DNA of 64,000 nt. It comes from Craspedostauros australis. Its lineage: Eukaryota > Bacillariophyta > Bacillariophyceae > Mastogloiales > Achnanthaceae. A program made the translations under genes and the position numbers. Shown piece by piece: positions 1,796-56,115 of this stretch; within the stretch, counting starts at the first letter, position 1; each line of letters starts with the position of its first letter. The stretch spans positions 2,728,001-2,792,000 of the forward strand of contig JAMXDE010000008.1 in NCBI GenBank assembly GCA_026770025.1, written 5' to 3'. The notes under the pieces were generated by a model. The model saw nothing but the letters and a program-made list of their open reading frames with translations. It was not told the DNA's origin and did not search any database.

Positions 1796-4700
1796 CCCTC
1801 GCGTAACTCCCAACATGCTCTGTCTTGCTGATTTGCCGCTGTCAGGGGTAGGCTTGAGGTACACTTCTCTCATTTTTCTGTGATGGGCCGTCGGATGATG
1901 CTTCGTGAAGTAGTCGGCGAGATTGTCTGCTCCGGGGGCCCAGTAGACAATGAATTGTCCTTGCTGGATCCGGTCGCGCACCCAGTAGAAGCGCATGTCC
2001 ATTGCTCTGGTGCGTCGCTGTTTCATGGTGTTGTTGACGATGCCGGATGCGGTGGAATTGTCTGTTTTGATGGGTGTGGGCGGTTGGGTGTGGCCCAGTT
2101 CGTCCAGCGTGGTGCGTAGGGCGGATGCCGCTGTGCAGTTCAGGTAGAGCGCTCCTACTTCGGCCTCCGCCGCTGAGCTCATTACGTTCTGTATTTTGTT
2201 GCAGACCGTGTGTATGGCACCGTTGTTTGGAGGTGGGTTGGCTGGCGCCTTGGTGTCCGTCGGGGATCTACTGCTGAGGTACATGTGGCCGCCGGCTCGG
2301 CTTCTGGCCTTTGGCAGGCTCAGGTATGATGCGTCGCTGTCGACATGTAGTATCATGTCGCTGGCGGTGTACACGATGGTCGCATTGGGGTGCGTGGCGC
2401 AGTAGTCGAGTAGCTGTCGTACCCGGTTCGCTGTGTTGTGCGTGGCATGTGCTTGTTGAGTGGCGATGTCGCTGACTGCGGGAAGGATGGTTGGGTCGAC
2501 GGCTCTTGCGTAGTATAGTAGGGTTCCTACTATTTGTCGGATGCGGATGATGTCTTCTGCTGGTAGCTCCGGTGCGGTGTCCTCCAGTTTGGGTTCTTGC
2601 GTTCTCGCGCCGTAGACTGGCGCTTCGCACGGCGCTGGCGCATGTTGTGGCTTGGTGGGGATCGGATGTTGGAATTTGTGAAGCGCCTTTTTCACGTATC
2701 CTGGCATGGACAGCTCCACTTTTCTCGCGTCGTAGTCCCACTTGAGGCTGACGCCGCAGTAGAGATCGCCGTCCCACTCGATGGTGCACTTGTATATTGT
2801 TTGAAGTGCCCCGATGAGATGCTGTGCGTGCTCTTTGCCCACGTATTTGACTCCGAAGTCGTCGACGACGAGAGTGAATGTGATGGGTCTGCAGTCGTGT
2901 TTCCACAATCCTGGAGTGTGTGGGACTGGTCTGTATCCGAATTTTGCGAGGTGTTTTTGGAGCTTCACATTTGCAATTTTGCCTGCTTGTGGTAGCCCAT
3001 ACATTCCCTTGCGTACTTCGACGTACACGTTGCCCTTGTGTTCGAGCTTGTGCAGCTGGTATTGCTCGATGACCTCTGGTGGCAGCATTGCCATCGGCAT
3101 GCGCATGTATTCGTATCTGTCCATTTCGGTGTTCAGATAAAAATCCTTGATGTCGATGGTCATGAACTTTGCTCCTGGGGTGGAGACAACGCTGTTGAAC
3201 AAACACTTTGCTGTGGTGAGTTCCGCGGTTGGTGTGTGCACGTCGAAGGGGTAATCGATTAGGTTACCTCCTACGGTGAGGCGCGTGCGATGTGTTTCCG
3301 CCTTTTGTGGCCTGACGGCGCATACGATGCGGCCGTAGGTTACGGTGCGATCTCGTGGTACTGCCGACCTTGGGACGAAGAAGATTGTGTTGGTTGCCGC
3401 CGACGCCGGAATGCGTGTTCCGATGCCTTGCGCCAAACGCCCGATCTCGTTCGCGAATGATGTGTACCATTGCTGCGGGGTGTGGCCGTGGACTTTGCCT
3501 GCGATGAGGTGGCGGTATTCGTACGCCGTGCCTGTGCGTTCGTCGATGACTGCGTTCGCCGTGCTAGTTCCGCGCGTCCATTGCTTGCGTTGGATGGTTC
3601 CTGTGCGTAGCCGTGTGCGCGGCGCCGTCGCGTCGCTCGTTGTGGTTGGCGCTTGCGCCCTGCGGTCTTCGTTGTCGTCGTCGTCATCGGTGTCTGATTC
3701 GGGGTCTGAGTCTGCTTCGTCGTCGGTGACCTGTGGTGTCGCCTGGGGCACCCTCGGAGGTGTGCGCGCTGGCGTCGTGAAGGTGACGCGTTTCTGTTTG
3801 TTGCCGCCGCTGGCTGTGGTGAGCACCCTCGGAGGTGGCTCTGTCCGCACCCTCGGAAGTGGTGCTGCGGGCACTCTCGGAAGTGGTGCGGTGGGTGTTG
3901 CTGGGAGCGTCGTCTGGAAGATGTCGCTGAGCTGCTGTAGTGCTCCCAGCTGCTCGTCGCCGACTGATTGTAGTGGCGCGCAGGGTTTGGTGAGCGCTGC
4001 GGCGAGGTCGCCGGCTGCTTTGATGGCCATTTCTGCGTTGGTTGGCGTGGGCATCGCGCACTTGCTCGGCATCAACTCGATGGTGTCGGTGACGCGGACT
4101 TTGCGCGTTTTGTTGCAATACACCTTGTAGCATCGGTAGTGCTCGAGTGCTGGTGCGATGTACCATCCGGCGGATCCGTGTGGTGCCCATGTGGCTCGCT
4201 TGTTGGGCTTGTCATGGATGACTGCCTTCGTTCCTGGTGGTGCCATCGGCGTTGCGTTGAAGTCGAAGTTGCCGTGGAGCGCGTGATGTGCTGAGATGTG
4301 CGGGTTGATGCGTGACGGTCGTAGCAGGTTGAGTGTGATGTCGCACTGCGGGAGGAGCTGGCACCACAGGTGGAGTGGAAATGCCTCGTCGGCCGTGGCC
4401 AGCCCTGCGATGAAGTGGTCCTTCCAAGTGGAGATAGCTCTCTCTGCAGCGTTGCGCCGATGGATGCCCGGTGGTACAAGTTGGTATTGCATACCTTTGG
4501 ATTCGATGAGGTGCTTGAGTTCTTTCGGTGCCTCGTTGTCGAGCCGGTGAAATCGCGGTGTCATTCCGCTTCGAAGGAGAACCGTCAAAAGTTCGTCACA
4601 CGCTCGCGTGAGTTCAGTTGCGTGACGACTGCGCATCGGTCGCGAAAGAATCGCGTTGGAGTCGTGGTCGTACAACACCATGATGTACTGGTATCCACGG

Positions 4701-5344
4701 CTTGACGTCACCGGGAAGCGTCCCGTTTGATCGGTGAAGATTTTACCCGTTGGCCGATAAACGTCCATGAAGATTTCGCGTTGTTCTGTGGGATTCTTGG
4801 TGGACTGGGTGACGTGGTTACAGTGATTGCGTGTGGACCGCGTGTTCTGGTACTGTTGCCGGAGGTGCCCAGCGGCTGTGGCGGTGGAGGGTGGAAGGAA
4901 TTTTCGCACCATTTGTTCAGTCAGTCCGGGCCACGACGAAAAGAATCCTTTCTTGATGGCTGCCGTGAACGTGGATACCGCGGGGCTGAAGCAGCACTGG
5001 TGGTAATATTTGGCCAGTTCCGTCTTGGTTGACGTGTGATGGACGTGATTGGCCATTTTTGGCGATGTTAGCTTCGGCGTTTGGATGTCGATGCGATACA
5101 TGCCGTCAACTTGATGCCGACAACCGGTGTGAATCGTGTTTCCGTTTTTTCGAATTCTCACGGATTCTTGGTCGAAGTCAACCGTCATGCCGTGGTCACA
5201 CAGTTGCCCCACCGACACAAGCGCCGCGCTGGAAAGTTGTGGAAAAACTCGCGCGGTGCACGCGTGCTGCGGTACATTGGCAATGCTGACCGTGGCTCGG
5301 TGGGAAGATTGGATGCTGGATCCGTCGGGCAACGACACCGACAA
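1631..5344 (-). CDS. pol: Copia element pol polyprotein
   Basis: The frame has 1237 codons from its first Met, and the reading frame is open upstream of that Met, where an aspartic protease motif (VDSGCTSH, near 5405-5430) is found. In order it shows a His/Cys pre-integrase region, an integrase core (TDQTGRFPV and later NAAERAISTWK), a long Pro/Thr/Asp-rich linker, a reverse transcriptase with the copia LVVDDFG active site, and an RNase H domain with a C-terminal YFTKHHPT. The protease-integrase-RT-RNase H order identifies Ty1/copia rather than gypsy. The end of the frame runs into the 3' LTR. It appears complete. Confidence 0.92.
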   Translation of the reverse strand: MSVSLPDGSSIQSSHRATVSIANVPQHACTARVFPQLSSAALVSVGQLCDHGMTVDFDQESVRIRKNGNTIHTGCRHQVDGMYRIDIQTPKLTSPKMANHVHHTSTKTELAKYYHQCCFSPAVSTFTAAIKKGFFSSWPGLTEQMVRKFLPPSTATAAGHLRQQYQNTRSTRNHCNHVTQSTKNPTEQREIFMDVYRPTGKIFTDQTGRFPVTSSRGYQYIMVLYDHDSNAILSRPMRSRHATELTRACDELLTVLLRSGMTPRFHRLDNEAPKELKHLIESKGMQYQLVPPGIHRRNAAERAISTWKDHFIAGLATADEAFPLHLWCQLLPQCDITLNLLRPSRINPHISAHHALHGNFDFNATPMAPPGTKAVIHDKPNKRATWAPHGSAGWYIAPALEHYRCYKVYCNKTRKVRVTDTIELMPSKCAMPTPTNAEMAIKAAGDLAAALTKPCAPLQSVGDEQLGALQQLSDIFQTTLPATPTAPLPRVPAAPLPRVRTEPPPRVLTTASGGNKQKRVTFTTPARTPPRVPQATPQVTDDEADSDPESDTDDDDDNEDRRAQAPTTTSDATAPRTRLRTGTIQRKQWTRGTSTANAVIDERTGTAYEYRHLIAGKVHGHTPQQWYTSFANEIGRLAQGIGTRIPASAATNTIFFVPRSAVPRDRTVTYGRIVCAVRPQKAETHRTRLTVGGNLIDYPFDVHTPTAELTTAKCLFNSVVSTPGAKFMTIDIKDFYLNTEMDRYEYMRMPMAMLPPEVIEQYQLHKLEHKGNVYVEVRKGMYGLPQAGKIANVKLQKHLAKFGYRPVPHTPGLWKHDCRPITFTLVVDDFGVKYVGKEHAQHLIGALQTIYKCTIEWDGDLYCGVSLKWDYDARKVELSMPGYVKKALHKFQHPIPTKPQHAPAPCEAPVYGARTQEPKLEDTAPELPAEDIIRIRQIVGTLLYYARAVDPTILPAVSDIATQQAHATHNTANRVRQLLDYCATHPNATIVYTASDMILHVDSDASYLSLPKARSRAGGHMYLSSRSPTDTKAPANPPPNNGAIHTVCNKIQNVMSSAAEAEVGALYLNCTAASALRTTLDELGHTQPPTPIKTDNSTASGIVNNTMKQRRTRAMDMRFYWVRDRIQQGQFIVYWAPGADNLADYFTKHHPTAHHRKMREVYLKPTPDSGKSARQSMLGVTRGCIDSSPARDPTDRRTQSAHLAPTFLLEQIKTLAGAKTATPQLSNVISHNISEQH

Positions 5345-5497
5345 CGGGTTATCGTCGGGTGTTTGGCCAGTGTAAGGATCTTCAGGTCGCAGGAAATGAC
5401 TAGTGCAACCAGAGTCAACAATGGCGAGGGCAGGAGCACAGGACGGTGAAGTAGTAACAGAGAGTGCTACTTGCTTACTGTGGTCCTGCCGTGCTTG

Positions 5498-6661
5498 TCA
5501 TGCGTTCGCCGGGGCGCCTTCGGTGGACCCTCCCATCGTGTTGCTGCGAGTGGCCTCCTTCTTGTGTCCTGGCGCTGGGTTCATGCACGTTGCGCTGGTG
5601 TGTGTGATGCCCACCTTGTATCCGTGTGTCCAGCAGTAGGAGGTGTGCTTGTGCTTGCGACCTCCTTTCTTGCCCCCGTTGCCGCTGCTTGTGGCCGCAT
5701 TGGCTTGTAGTTGGGACACCATCGCCGTGATCTCGGACAACTGCTTGACGAGGTTGGCGTTGCTCTCGGTGAGCTGGGCCACGGTGTTGCGATCCGCAGC
5801 TGTGGCGGACGCGAGGTTGGCGAGCGCGTCGGCGGTCTCCGTGGCGGTGATCGCCGCATTGGCTCCTTGGAAGTTGGCGCCATTCGCTGTGGCTTGCGAT
5901 TCGCGGAGATCTTGATGAGCTGCTGCGAAGTCTCGCTTGAAGCGAGTCCATGTCTTGTCGGCGGCACTGAGAGCGCGGAAAGAACGGCAGGCTTCGGGGA
6001 ACGCTTGTGTTCGGAACACCAGGTTGTATGCCGTGGTGACGAGCTGGTGATCCGCGTACGGCGCTTTGGCAGCAGCCGCAAGATCGCGCGCAGACTCGAT
6101 TTGGGCGACGAGCACTTCGAACGGCGCCGTCGGGTCGTAGGGTGTCTTCATGGCCTTGTCGTTTTCGTCGAGGTCTTGTGGTGTGATCTTGCCGTATGTG
6201 GAGTACAGGTGGGTCAGAAGCTCGAGCGTCGTGACGTTGGCGTATCCGACGATGTTGTGGCGGAGAGTTCGCACGTACTGGTCTTCGATGGCGCCAAGAA
6301 GCTGCTGCTTGAGGGCATTGTCGACCGCGCGGTACTCTCTCCAAAGGCGCTCTTGTTCCTTGTGGATGCTGGTGGCGGCGCTGATCTGGGCTGCAGTGGC
6401 CGCGTTCGGGATGTTCGGGTGCGGTCCTGGGTTGACCGGCACGACGAATGCTGTCGCCGAATGTTCTTGGTACACCTCTCGGGAGACGGTGAGGACCAGG
6501 TATCCGAGCTGACCGTTTCCGAGGGGGCAGTGCACCGAGGCCGCATTGGCGTTGAGGACTACATTGAGTTCTGCGATGGACTCGTATGTGGGTACCCCGA
6601 CGATGGGTTCGACGATTGCCTGCGGAAAGGTGGCGAGGATCTTCTCGTGGCTGTTGGCCAT
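5498..6661 (-). CDS. gag: Copia element gag-like protein
   Basis: This frame of 387 codons follows the 5' LTR. It starts MANSHEK, is largely helical in composition, and ends with a Cys/His segment (YCWTHG, then H, then C and PGHK) that I associate with the nucleocapsid end of gag in diatom CoDi elements. Its position between the 5' LTR and pol supports gag. Pol lies downstream in a different frame, as is common in this class. Confidence 0.8.
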   Translation of the reverse strand: MANSHEKILATFPQAIVEPIVGVPTYESIAELNVVLNANAASVHCPLGNGQLGYLVLTVSREVYQEHSATAFVVPVNPGPHPNIPNAATAAQISAATSIHKEQERLWREYRAVDNALKQQLLGAIEDQYVRTLRHNIVGYANVTTLELLTHLYSTYGKITPQDLDENDKAMKTPYDPTAPFEVLVAQIESARDLAAAAKAPYADHQLVTTAYNLVFRTQAFPEACRSFRALSAADKTWTRFKRDFAAAHQDLRESQATANGANFQGANAAITATETADALANLASATAADRNTVAQLTESNANLVKQLSEITAMVSQLQANAATSSGNGGKKGGRKHKHTSYCWTHGYKVGITHTSATCMNPAPGHKKEATRSNTMGGSTEGAPANA

Positions 6662-51014: not shown

Positions 51015-51454
51015 GGAAGATCGTCCGTGACTTAATCTCGTCGTCATCTTGCTGTGTCGCGACTTGGCATGTGACTGTGCACGACAACACTGGATGGTAC
51101 CAGCATGAATGCCACACTCGTGGTCCAGCATACTCCCCTCCATCGGTCGCTTGGGATCTTTCCGCCACAATCCTTGATCGATGCCCTGCTGAACGATCTG
51201 ATCCACAAGTATGAGTATGAGTATGAGCCGACCAATCCACTCAAGAGTACCTCAAGCGTATCTTAACTCAACTCAATTCAAATGAACACAATTCAATAGT
51301 CCGATAAGATGTTATGCCGCAGCTCTCCTCTGGATCATTCCAAGAGCAGACGCGATCATCCCAGTCTTCTCTTCTCTTGTGCAACAGTCCAATCCAAGGG
51401 CCAACCCCCACAGCCAACGACAAGGAGGGGTGTCGATGATGCCATCGGAATTCT
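51015..51454. other. Intergenic between the SLOG gene and the inverted-repeat element
   Basis: No gene seen. It holds the promoter side of the SLOG-like gene. Confidence 0.4.
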
Positions 51455-51622
51455 GGGGCTTCCGGTAAAACGGACTATCGGACTAACGAACAGCATCACT
51501 ATTTGGTTAACGGACGATATTAGTCGTGAATGCGAAATTCTTAGTCATGATTGGAATGTCGTACTTGGCGTTTATGGTTTATGCAATCCGTGATTGAATT
51601 GTCTCTAGCCTACAGCGAAAAA

Positions 51623-51766
51623 AAAAATGCCCTAAAATAAGGCACCTTTTGAAAAGATGCCCTATTTAGGGCACGTTTTGAAAAGGTGCCCTATTTAAGG
51701 CACGTTTTGAAAAGGTGCCCTATTTAAGGCACGTTTTGAAAAGGTGCCCTATTTTAGGGCACGTTT
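51623..51766. repeat. First array of five 29-bp palindromic units
   Basis: Units have the form GAAAAGG then TGCCCTATTTAAGGCA then CGTTTT. Each unit is close to its own reverse complement, with the core GTGCCCTATTTAGGGCAC. The first unit is more diverged and starts in an A run. Confidence 0.92.
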
Positions 51767-51984
51767 TGTTTCACAATAGCCCAGCCACGATGGGCACATT
51801 CCACAAAGCCATCAACGGGGAACGATGTGGACGTCACTGAATGACGAATCAGAACACTAATACTTATCGTCAACTTGGCGTGACATGCCTTTGATAATCC
51901 TCTGTCGTCGCGTTGTTGCGCGGGATTTGCTCTTGCTCTTTCTGTCGTCCAATCGGCTGCGAACAGCGACATGTGGGTGAGGGA

Positions 51985-52131
51985 GAAAAGGTGCCCTATT
52001 TAGGGCACGTTTTGAAAAGATGCCCTATTCAGGGCACGTTTTGAAAAGGTGCCCTATATAAGGCACGTTTTGAAAAGATGCCCTAATTTAAGGCACGTTT
52101 TGAAAAGGTGCCCTATTTTAGGGCATCTTTT
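51985..52131. repeat. Second array of five 29-bp palindromic units
   Basis: The unit and strand orientation match the first array, with a few substitutions (ATTCAG, ATATAA and AATTTA cores). Variants keep the inverted symmetry of TGCCC/GGGCA in most units. Confidence 0.92.
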
Positions 52132-52283
52132 GACATCGCACAGATACGAGTCGCGAGTGGCGACGACAATGTCTGAAGGACATGGCAATCAAGACTAATA
52201 AAATCTCATTCACGACTAACAGTGTTCGTAAGTCCGTTAAAATGCACCCGAACCACCATGTCCGGCAGTTTACCGGAAGCCCC

Positions 52284-52761
52284 TGATGATCGGAGACATC
52301 ATGGTTGATCGGCGCGCCTCTCGATCTTTTTCTTTTCGCGCAGATCTTGTGCGTTTTTAATAAAACACTTTGTCAGTACTGAGAAATAGTGACACACAGT
52401 AACAGAATCATTCACGAATTATCAATACTACGATGGATGTGGGTAGAGCAAACATCATACTCATCGTCCTGCGGCGAAAGCATCATTGTGTTGTTGATCG
52501 TATTGCACTACGACTAATCCTATAATATGAGTTACTCTACACACGACGTGATATGCATATTCCTACTTGTTCTGCAAAAGCACTCCCCCTCACTTGATGG
52601 GAGAACAGCACATCGGGTCGTTAACGATGTGCGTCAGCGGCGTTTCAGCTCGTTTCTGGCTTGGCTGTTGTTGTGCAGTGATACAATGCATGCGGAAGGA
52701 TCAATTGAAACAAATGAATGGCACGGGTGTGAGTGTTTCTGAATATTCTGCATCACACAAA
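52284..52761. other. Intergenic after the inverted-repeat element
   Basis: No supported gene. It has the octamer TACGACTA at 52509-52516. A 71-codon plus frame (52527-52742) shows no features. Confidence 0.4.
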
Positions 52762-55700
52762 TCACAATGCCACGCCATGTCCAATCTTACCAATCGCCGT
52801 CTCCGCTGCCGCCTCGATTTTATCTTCCTTCGGCAGCAACTCTTTCGCGGTCTTGCCGGCCTTGTTCTTGAGATCGGCATTGACATCGATATTTTCCGAG
52901 CTCAGCACGTAGCTCATGAGGTCCCTGTAACCACCGGCGCAGGCAAGATGCAACGGGGTGTCCCCGTCGTTGTTGGGACCGTTGAAGTTGATGTTCGTGG
53001 GGTTGGTTTCGACGGCCTTGCGCACCCACTTCAGGTCGCCGGTGCGGCAGGCCAGATGCAGGGGCGTGTCACCGTCGGTTTTGTTGCGGACGTTCATGTC
53101 GATGGTGACGTCGTCGGACTCCTTCAGGAAGGTGACGACATTCTCGTGACCGTAGCGGTGCGCAAGGTGAAACCCGGTGTCACCATCGACGTTCTGGATG
53201 TTGACGCCGACCTTGCCTTCGTCACCGTCGGAGAAGTAGTTGAGGAGGCTGCGCGTGCCGAAGCAGCATACCAATGACACGAACCCTTTGGGTTTCTTCG
53301 TGTCGTCTTCCTCCTTTTTGTCATCGGCCGGATCGGACGCGAGGAAGTACTGCACGATGTTGAGATGCCCGTAGCGGCATGCCAGATGGAAGGGCGTATC
53401 GCCGTGGTTGTTCTTCTTGTTGGGTTCCGTCTTGATCTTATCCGACTCCACCAATGCGCGCGTCCATTCGAGGAATCCCGATTGGCACGCGAGATGCAGC
53501 AGGGTGTCCGTCCTGTTGTTCGTCTTGTTCTTGATGCCGGCCTTCGTCTGCGACGATTGGATCAGGGTGCGCAGCCAGGCGGCGTCGGCCGAACGACAGG
53601 CCAGATGCAACGGCGTGAGGCCGACACTGTTGCGAATGCTGAGATCGACCTTGGCGCGTGGCGATTTGAGGAAGTAATCGGCGACGTCCTTCTTGACGTA
53701 CCGGCAGGCCAGATGCAGCGGCGTGTTGCCGTTGCTGTTTTGGATGTTGACGTCGGGCCGCAGTCGGTCGGACTCGATCAAGGTGCGCACCCAATGCAAG
53801 CTGCCTGCCCAGCACGCCAGATGCAACGCCGTGTTGCCGTTGTCGTTTTGCATGTTGACGTCGATGTCGGCCTTGGTGCATTTGATCAGGTAGGCTCCGA
53901 CCTCCTTGTGTCCATGCCAGCAGGCCAGATGCAGCGGTGAGTTCCCGCTGTTGTCGCGGATATTGACATCGATGTCGGCCTGTTCCGATTCGACCAGGTA
54001 CTCGACCGCGTCGCGCTGTCCATGCCAAAAGGCGAGATGCAGAGGCGCCTTGCCATTTTTGTTTTTGATGTTGCCATCGATGTTGGTCTCGTCGGACTCC
54101 ATGAGGAAGGCCACGACGTCCTTCTGTCCATACTGGCACGCAAAATGGAGCGGCGTATCGCCATCTTCATTCTGAATGTTGACGTTGACCTCCGTCTTGT
54201 CCGACTCCACCAGGTACTCCACGGCGTCCCTGTGACCATAGCGACAGGCAAGATGACACGGCGTGTTGCCGGCCTTGTTGGTGATGTCCGCATCGATATG
54301 GATCTTATCCGATTCCATCATGAATTCGACGATGGCCTTGTGGCCGCTCATGCAGGCGAGGTGCAGGGGCGTGTTGCCCTTGGTGTTTTGGAGGTTGGCG
54401 TTGGCCTTGATATTTTTGGATTCGACGAGGCATTGCAGGACGTCGGCGTGGCCGTGGCGGCAGACGAGATGCAGCGGCGTGTCGTTGTCGTCATTGTTGG
54501 GGACGGTGGCATCGAGCGTGGTGCGTCCCGATTGCGCGAGGTATTCGATGGCCTCCTTGTGACCGAATCGGCAGGCGAGGTGCAGGGGTGTGAAGCCGTC
54601 CTCGTCGCGGATATTGACGTCGAGATTGGCCTTGTCGGACTTGACGAGGTATTCCACGACGAGCCTGCGGCCGTTGCGGTAGGCGAGATGGAGGGGCGTG
54701 TTGCCCTGGCTGTTCTGGACGTTGACGTCGGCATGCGTCTTGGTGGATTCGACGAGGTAGGCCACGATGGTCGCGTGTCCGGATCGGCAGGCGTAATGGA
54801 GGGCCGTGTTGCCGTCGTTGGCGCGGATGTTGGGATCGACGTTGGTGTGCTCAAAATCCACGAGCTGGCGCACGAGATCCAGGCGTCCGCTCTGACATGC
54901 AAAATGGAGCGGCGTCTTGCCGTCGCTGTCGCGGATGTTGAGATCGAGGTTGACGGGGTCTTCGTGAACCAGGATGCGGATCTTCTCCGCGTCGCCATTT
55001 TGGCATGCGACGTGGACGGGGGTGTTGCCGTTGCCATCGCGGATGTTGGCGTTGAATTTCATCTCGGCCATCATGGCCATGTAGGGCAGCAGACCGGGTA
55101 TGTTGCTGGCGCATGCGTAGTGGATGGGCGTCTTGCCGTGCTTGTTCTGAATGTTGACATTGATGTTGTCGGGATCCGCCTCGAGCAGGGCCTTGATGGA
55201 ATCGGCCTGATTGTGGACGCAGGCGTAGTGCAGCGCCGTGTCGCCGTCGCCTATGTTCTGCTCGTTGATGTCTAGATCGACCATCTCCGATGCCAGCAGG
55301 TACTTGACGATGTGCTTGTGCCCGAAGCGAGACGCCAGATGCAGCAGGGTCTTGCCGTCGTTGTCTGTGAGCTCGAAATCCACCTTGTTGCGGCCCGTCT
55401 CGATGAAGGCCTTGACCCAGTCCACGTCGCCCGACCAGCAGGCCAGATGCACCGGCGTGTTGCCGTTGTTGTCCTGGATGTTGATGTCGATGGCGAGATC
55501 CTTGTTGGCCATGAAGTAGGTGACGAGATCGAAGTGCTTGTACCGCCATGCCAGATGCAGGGGAGTGTTGCCGTTGCTGTCCTGCACGTTGATGTCGACG
55601 GTGCCGCCGTTGAGCTCCACCAGGTACTTGACGAGGTCGATGTGACCGAAGCGGCATGCGAGATGCAGCGGCGCGTCCCCTGATTTGCTCTGGATGTTGA

Positions 55701-56115
55701 CGTCGACCTGGCCTGGCTTGGCCTCCACCAGCGTGCGCACCCAGTCGAAGTAGCCCGACCAGCAGCACAGGAAGAGGGGCGTCTCGCCGTTCCGGTTCTG
55801 CACGTTGACGTCGATGTCGAAATGATCCGACTGGACGAGGTAGTCGAAGAGCTCCTTCCTTCCGTACCAGCAGGCAAGGTGCAGCGAGGTGTCGCCGTCG
55901 CTGTTCTGGCTGTTGACATCGACCGTGGCGTCGTCGGCTTCGAGCAGAGCCTTGACCGCCTCCACCTCCTCCATCTGGCAGGCCTCATGCAGCTTGTTGC
56001 CCGGCACGCTGGAGCTGCTGAAGCTCGCTCTGCGGTTGTATTCCGCCTTGGCCGGATTCATGGTCTCGTCTCCGTTCATGCCCTCTGCTGGTGTGTTATG
56101 TGTATGCACAGCCAT
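52762..56115 (-). CDS. Ankyrin-repeat protein with about 28 repeats
   Basis: A single exon of 1117 codons. After a short N-terminus (to about residue 40), ankyrin repeats run almost to the end. I count about 28 copies, each with a NGNTPLHLACRYGH-type signature and then VEYLVES-type helices, plus half-repeats at each end (KLHEACQMEEVEAVKALLE at the start). The unit is about 37 residues because of an extra DVNIQN-type hairpin. One unit near residue 955 (KPKGFVSLVCCFG) is degenerate. No other domain or membrane segment is seen, so it is probably a scaffold or binding protein. The partner is unknown. Met 13 (MNGDETM) is an alternative start. Confidence 0.9.
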   Translation of the reverse strand: MAVHTHNTPAEGMNGDETMNPAKAEYNRRASFSSSSVPGNKLHEACQMEEVEAVKALLEADDATVDVNSQNSDGDTSLHLACWYGRKELFDYLVQSDHFDIDVNVQNRNGETPLFLCCWSGYFDWVRTLVEAKPGQVDVNIQSKSGDAPLHLACRFGHIDLVKYLVELNGGTVDINVQDSNGNTPLHLAWRYKHFDLVTYFMANKDLAIDINIQDNNGNTPVHLACWSGDVDWVKAFIETGRNKVDFELTDNDGKTLLHLASRFGHKHIVKYLLASEMVDLDINEQNIGDGDTALHYACVHNQADSIKALLEADPDNINVNIQNKHGKTPIHYACASNIPGLLPYMAMMAEMKFNANIRDGNGNTPVHVACQNGDAEKIRILVHEDPVNLDLNIRDSDGKTPLHFACQSGRLDLVRQLVDFEHTNVDPNIRANDGNTALHYACRSGHATIVAYLVESTKTHADVNVQNSQGNTPLHLAYRNGRRLVVEYLVKSDKANLDVNIRDEDGFTPLHLACRFGHKEAIEYLAQSGRTTLDATVPNNDDNDTPLHLVCRHGHADVLQCLVESKNIKANANLQNTKGNTPLHLACMSGHKAIVEFMMESDKIHIDADITNKAGNTPCHLACRYGHRDAVEYLVESDKTEVNVNIQNEDGDTPLHFACQYGQKDVVAFLMESDETNIDGNIKNKNGKAPLHLAFWHGQRDAVEYLVESEQADIDVNIRDNSGNSPLHLACWHGHKEVGAYLIKCTKADIDVNMQNDNGNTALHLACWAGSLHWVRTLIESDRLRPDVNIQNSNGNTPLHLACRYVKKDVADYFLKSPRAKVDLSIRNSVGLTPLHLACRSADAAWLRTLIQSSQTKAGIKNKTNNRTDTLLHLACQSGFLEWTRALVESDKIKTEPNKKNNHGDTPFHLACRYGHLNIVQYFLASDPADDKKEEDDTKKPKGFVSLVCCFGTRSLLNYFSDGDEGKVGVNIQNVDGDTGFHLAHRYGHENVVTFLKESDDVTIDMNVRNKTDGDTPLHLACRTGDLKWVRKAVETNPTNINFNGPNNDGDTPLHLACAGGYRDLMSYVLSSENIDVNADLKNKAGKTAKELLPKEDKIEAAAETAIGKIGHGVAL

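Follow-up and report, generated by a model that had tools for sequence, protein, structure and literature searches.

Described Elements Related to the Locus

The canonical PIF/Harbinger group is described by a TWA target duplication (PMC4482050). The NuwaI group is described as having a CWG duplication, termini that usually start with GGG, an inverted repeat of 12–61 bp, and a second gene with a Myb/SANT domain. In its source paper, NuwaI was reported from animals only (16 genomes), and the main text contained none of the stems subterminal, tandem, or palindrom.

Repeated or protein-binding motifs near the ends have been described in three other systems. The MtPH-A6-4 subfamily of PIF/Harbinger in Medicago truncatula is reported to have subterminal tandem repeats (PMC2213677). 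As described in the text covered, these differ from the present arrays in having 60-bp units with a triplicated motif, 2–35 copies, and opposite orientation where they occur at both ends; the word stem palindrom was absent from that paper (PMC2213677). The accessory protein of zebrafish Harbinger3_DR is reported to bind a subterminal motif, to interact with the transposase, and to be needed together with it (PMC9710019, PMC2836001). It differs in its 9-bp motif and Myb-like protein, and an array was not described in the text covered. In Galileo (P superfamily), tandem repeats near the ends were reported to contain several transposase binding sites by footprinting and EMSA (PMC3688188). According to the text covered, Galileo differs in its unrelated transposase with a THAP domain and in the location of the sites within long inverted repeats.

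No description of palindromic subterminal arrays in Harbinger elements was found in the open literature searched, mostly at listing level, with subscription papers and Repbase Reports outside its scope. Subterminal tandem repeats have already been published for PIF/Harbinger (Medicago), so the palindromic units described here represent a new variation on a known kind of array.

Structure of the Short Element

The window, that is, the whole stretch of 64,000 nucleotides analysed here, contained an element of 827 bp at 51456–52282. The 3-bp target site CTG was duplicated on its flanks at 51453–51455 and 52283–52285; the left duplication was assigned from the flank sequence and from CWG at 13/13 end-to-end short copies. 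The preliminary description had placed the ends at 51455 and 52283. Its inverted ends were found, but its exact limits shifted, since the first G and the last C belong to the CTG duplication. The left terminal inverted repeat lay at 51456–51560 (plus strand) and the right one at 52179–52282 (minus strand). The termini began with GGGCTTCC, and the first 14 bp (GGGCTTCCGGTAAA) were perfectly inverted. The imperfect repeat of ~105 bp, as previously described, reached ~51560 and 52179 on its inner sides. The longest frame wholly within the element was 72 aa, and there was no transposase gene. A long minus-strand ankyrin-repeat frame was observed at 52762–56115, ~480 bp from the element. The genes found in the window (ankyrin, SNF2 with F-box, TLDc) suggest that the genome is eukaryotic.

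Two subterminal arrays were located at 51627–51768 and 51985–52133, both assigned to the plus strand and each composed of five palindromic units with a step of 29 bp, in some cases 30 bp. The centre between them (51769–51984) had no arrays, and its right part corresponded to the segment of the autonomous element that starts at position 5117; neither the centre nor the target duplications were assigned a strand. The outermost left unit was degenerate. Each unit consisted of two dyads, roughly RTGCCYTA...TARRGCAY and TTTTGAAAA. Dyad matches were found at 24/29 positions, a score reached by 0/5000 shuffles (fractions of 0.0002 and 0.0004 in repeat runs). The two arrays of five near-palindromic 29-bp units noticed earlier were thus recovered, but their supposed symmetry was not: the spacers showed that both arrays run in the same orientation, without mirroring. 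The autonomous copy L009 gave the same result, with 45 direct versus 0 inverted shared repeated 9-mers.

Conservation within the unit was examined in a profile of 16 distinct 29-mers from 35, with ten 30-mers omitted. The segments TTTT.AAAA and TGCC.TA varied slightly at most. Several tolerated changes fell at dyad-related sites, namely positions 16 and 23, positions 11 and 28, and the centre. The profile was also asymmetric: position 24 varied in 4/16 and its partner 15 in none, and position 28 varied only once. The 18-bp core gave 188 matches with up to 2 mismatches on both strands of the 74.8-Mb genome (90 contigs), versus 0 for the reversed pattern. Because the core equals its reverse complement apart from 2 positions, a single place may score on each strand, and the matches represent fewer than 188 places. 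Among the core matches listed, at least one (C40:604373) lay outside the copies returned by the genome search described below, with remnants of the accessory gene ~400 bp away.

Copies in the Genome

A genome search with the full element returned 8 copies at 100% over the full query (including that in the window), a further 4 at 89%, and numerous partial copies, which ruled out a one-off repeat. Thirteen end-to-end short copies, the window's among them, were compared. Nine showed no difference at any aligned base, although the C73 copy among them lacked three units; the remaining four showed 94.4–96.4% identity to the window element. All 13 had matching CAG or CTG on both flanks. With two autonomous copies added, a 3-bp CWG duplication (CAG or CTG) was present at 15/15 tabulated copies, and no target preference beyond CWG was clear among the 15 sites.

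Eight short copies had 5/5 units (left/right), two had 6/6, and single copies had 4/6, 5/3, and 5/2. The 5 + 5 balance noted before therefore holds for the window element and is not a fixed trait; autonomous copies have 6/7. The differences among copies suggest that units were gained or lost by slippage or by recombination between units.

Matching flanks were less regular in diverged copies. Only one of the eight tabulated (L053) had the same CWG on both flanks. Three (C66d, C64a, C64b) had CTG on one flank and CAG on the other, one (C66a) had CAG and CAC, and three (L028, L059, L060) had one altered flank. These older related copies count against a clean fit. Three further copies with matching CTG (in L051, L054, and L056) had a common flank sequence nearly equal to that of L053; since the flanking sequence is shared or almost so, they probably derive from one insertion. 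Diverged copies of 648–649 bp in L052, L054, and L055 were flanked by CTG and CAG on opposite sides, with no simple duplication. Two partial copies, L025 (C57) and L026 (C7), shared the flanking bases at the intact end and are therefore probably one insertion later duplicated with its surroundings.

In L028, L059, and L060 (363–365 bp) and, by eye, in L053 (392 bp), both ends were fused through two or three units. Their structure suggests that they arose by recombination between the two direct arrays. The earlier proposal of recombination-prone DNA was borne out in part: unit numbers differ by 29-bp steps, and some short relatives resemble array-to-array fusions.

Autonomous Relatives and Class Assignment

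Two autonomous copies, one of 5588 bp on C21 and one of 5591 bp on C5, were found with 99.95% identity to each other. Both had the ends of the short form, arrays of 6/7 units, a transposase gene, and an accessory gene encoding 358 aa. The transposase of the C21 copy contained the DDE_Tnp_4 domain (PF13359) with an E-value of 1.6e-14 and 54.3 bits against a cut-off of 24.8. Three uninterrupted 328-aa transposase frames were found (C1, C5, C21). D167, D246, and E279 were invariant in a 9-member alignment, and we take them to be the catalytic residues. In L009, two more frames of 186 and 229 aa were observed at 2573–3829; they gave no Pfam match above cut-off and had counterparts in the F2 group at ~24–42% identity.

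A nested pair on C1 contained one autonomous element within the transposase gene of another (L011 5044 to L012 1630; C1:2401043-2406629). The empty site GTGAGCTGGCCAAA in L009 and L010 had one CTG, and the occupied site on C1 had CTG on both sides of the insert. The outer element of the pair was flanked by CAG on both sides.

The short form corresponded to positions 1–310 and 5117–5588 of the autonomous element, with ~82–85% identity in the outer parts. Because it matches these two end blocks, it is an internal-deletion derivative. Judged from the alignment, the junction of the ~4.8-kb deletion lies in the centre, 51769–51984.

The three-dimensional structures of both proteins were predicted. 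The transposase model (mean pLDDT 62) gave no match at E 0.001 in a structure search, and sequence searches against solved structures gave none at E 1. The accessory protein model (mean pLDDT 84) gave weak matches only, none at E 0.001, and the best hit of a profile search of solved structures was an unrelated protein at E 0.056. No Pfam DNA-binding domain was found in the accessory protein. Myb or SANT folds were absent among the listed structural matches, all of which were weak, and this leaves room for a Myb/SANT domain.

These results identify the element as a short, recently active, non-autonomous transposon of the PIF/Harbinger (PHIS) superfamily. The autonomous partner encodes a DDE_Tnp_4 transposase. 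The termini are inverted with a duplication within the 0–3 bp of the superfamily at 15/15 copies, although 7/8 diverged copies lacked a matching pair. As in a MITE, the element is short, lacks a transposase gene, and has its ends in common with an autonomous element. The TWA duplication of the canonical group was not observed, the target being CAG or CTG in 15/15. The element is most like NuwaI in its termini and CWG target. Both have a 3-bp CWG duplication, termini starting with GGG, and separate transposase and accessory genes. The 14-bp perfect repeat falls within the 12–61 bp of NuwaI, and the imperfect repeat of ~105 bp is longer. The autonomous lengths are of similar order (~4.5 kb on average in NuwaI versus 5.59 kb here). 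NuwaI has a Myb/SANT accessory protein, a domain that was not detected in the accessory protein here. The preliminary description had regarded the locus as an inverted-repeat mobile element of unrecognised family and had proposed an assembly search. That search yielded multiple copies sharing both arrays and ends, target duplications, an empty site, and autonomous relatives that revealed the class.

Arrays in Other Harbinger Groups

At least 125 transposase matches were present in the genome. Twenty transposase loci together with L009 and L010 (22 loci) were assigned visually, rather than from a tree, to ten groups, F1–F10, according to their transposase identity, ends, and arrays; the present element belongs to F1. 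CWG duplications were found at L040–L042, L044, and L047 in a search open to any 3 bp, and at L037, L039, and L043 in a search restricted to CWG, with L037 and L039 agreeing with homology limits. In the open search, matches at L030, L031, and L035 were low-complexity or false and were discarded.

Arrays were found on both sides in F1 (29 bp), F2 (11 bp), F5 (21/9 bp), F7, F8, and F9 (20 bp; its right array extends to the edge of the stretch examined), and on one side only in F3 (20 bp) and F10 (10 bp). Arrays are not universal, since F4 showed no tandem array near its delimited ends and that of F6 was weak. Their orientation was direct in F1, F5, F7, F8, and F9 and inverted in F2. At least five repeated 9-mers were common to both flanks at 12/22 loci (6/10 groups, those with arrays on both sides), versus 4/426 between-group pairings; when four instead of three repeats were required, the values were 11/22 loci and 4/426. 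Low-complexity repeats raise these scores at F2 loci, and all 4 between-group pairings join F2 with F7.

Both element ends could be delimited in five groups, in which the main arrays began 130–217 bp from each end, at similar distances on both sides. The left and right distances were 161–183 and 149–167 bp in F1, 131–157 and 130–156 bp in F5 (over all rows), 210 and 216 bp in F6, 165–180 and 164–177 bp in F7, and 168 and 173 bp in F8. Minor two-copy array rows lay at other distances. Single ends gave, by subtraction, ~250 bp in F3 and 168 bp in F9.

The gene layout bears on whether the arrays serve as promoter, repressor, or terminator sites for the genes of the element. In L009, the transposase gene occupies 4580–5566 on the minus strand, and the right array (~5750–5952) lies upstream of it. 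However, both arrays of F5 and the visible array of F3 are situated past the gene 3' ends, and those of F2 lie upstream of both genes; a promoter feature confined to one side of the genes was thus rejected. The gene-less short copies also retain both arrays. Transcription control is improbable. Genes and arrays are oriented differently to one another from group to group, so array position follows the ends and not promoters.

An action through structure, either DNA cruciforms or hairpin RNA that promotes excision or enters small-RNA silencing, would agree with the strong single-strand folding of both F1 arrays with DNA parameters (z −11.2 and −13.0; 0 shuffles as stable). However, when nine units from eight groups were scored, only that of F1 was more palindromic than shuffles. 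The eight others, from F2, F3 (twice), F5, and F7–F10, were no more so, although their arrays are similarly placed, and rescoring of the F10 and L047 units with exact units gave p 0.14, 0.16, and 0.92. Dyad symmetry is thus no general need, and a structural role is very improbable.

Predicted Role of the Arrays

The account that we consider reasonably probable is that the element is a recently mobilised non-autonomous PIF/Harbinger transposon, formed by internal deletion of the ~5.59-kb autonomous element, whose palindromic units are predicted to bind an element-encoded, end-marking protein. This agrees with the transposase-binding sites suggested in the preliminary description. The deletion kept both ends and both arrays. 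An element-encoded DNA-binding protein would load both subterminal arrays, recruit the transposase, and assist synapsis of the ends. The binder may more likely be the accessory protein, with two modules, or possibly the transposase. The position of the arrays, their retention in deletion derivatives, and the uneven and partly symmetric conservation of the unit point to end sites. The direct arrays, which do not mirror the inverted ends (those of F2 are inverted), count against this reading, as do the asymmetry of the unit profile, the lack of a tandem array in F4, the non-palindromic units of other groups, and the lack of a Pfam DNA-binding domain in the accessory protein.

The arrays might instead be neutral minisatellites that arose and became homogenised within the element through replication slippage or gap repair and do not contribute to transposition. 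Unit number varies among near-identical copies (5/5 versus 5/2 at 100% aligned identity), different groups have arrays of unrelated sequence, F4 has no tandem array, and the Medicago authors tied the MtPH-A6-4 subterminal repeats to abortive gap repair (PMC2213677). A neutral origin does not fit well with the similar distance of the arrays from both ends in five groups, with the strongly uneven conservation within the unit, or with the retention of left and right arrays in short and long copies alike, and we consider it unlikely.

For the end-site reading, a broader form can be put forward only tentatively. The CWG-target Harbinger elements here may share an undescribed end architecture, in which a tandem array ~130–250 bp from each inverted end is read by a two-module, helical, non-Myb/SANT accessory protein, with a unit code particular to each lineage and palindromic in F1. 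If so, lineage-specific codes would keep the ends distinct from those of co-resident families. To our knowledge, little is known about how PIF/Harbinger proteins locate the correct ends and how many related families coexist without cross-mobilising. Several families with similarly placed arrays, different units, and diverging accessory proteins make the question testable by array and protein swaps.

Co-divergence of units and accessory proteins was considered and rejected as support. Across 8 loci, unit similarity and accessory-protein identity were correlated (r 0.73, 19/2000 permutations; r 0.75, 26/5000 with exact finder units). The correlation was −0.47 with one locus per clade, and the F3–F7 units were alike although the accessory proteins were 18–21% identical. 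Co-divergence is not counted as support because the signal came wholly from F7–F9. A half-site common to F1 and its nearest transposase relative, F2, was also rejected (unit score 4 versus 4.5 in shuffles; p 0.897 and 0.882).

In F4, ~550 bp close to one side of the L035 locus (791–1335) matched the end region of the L036 locus (5454–5997) in direct orientation with ~79% identity, and part of L034 matched both.
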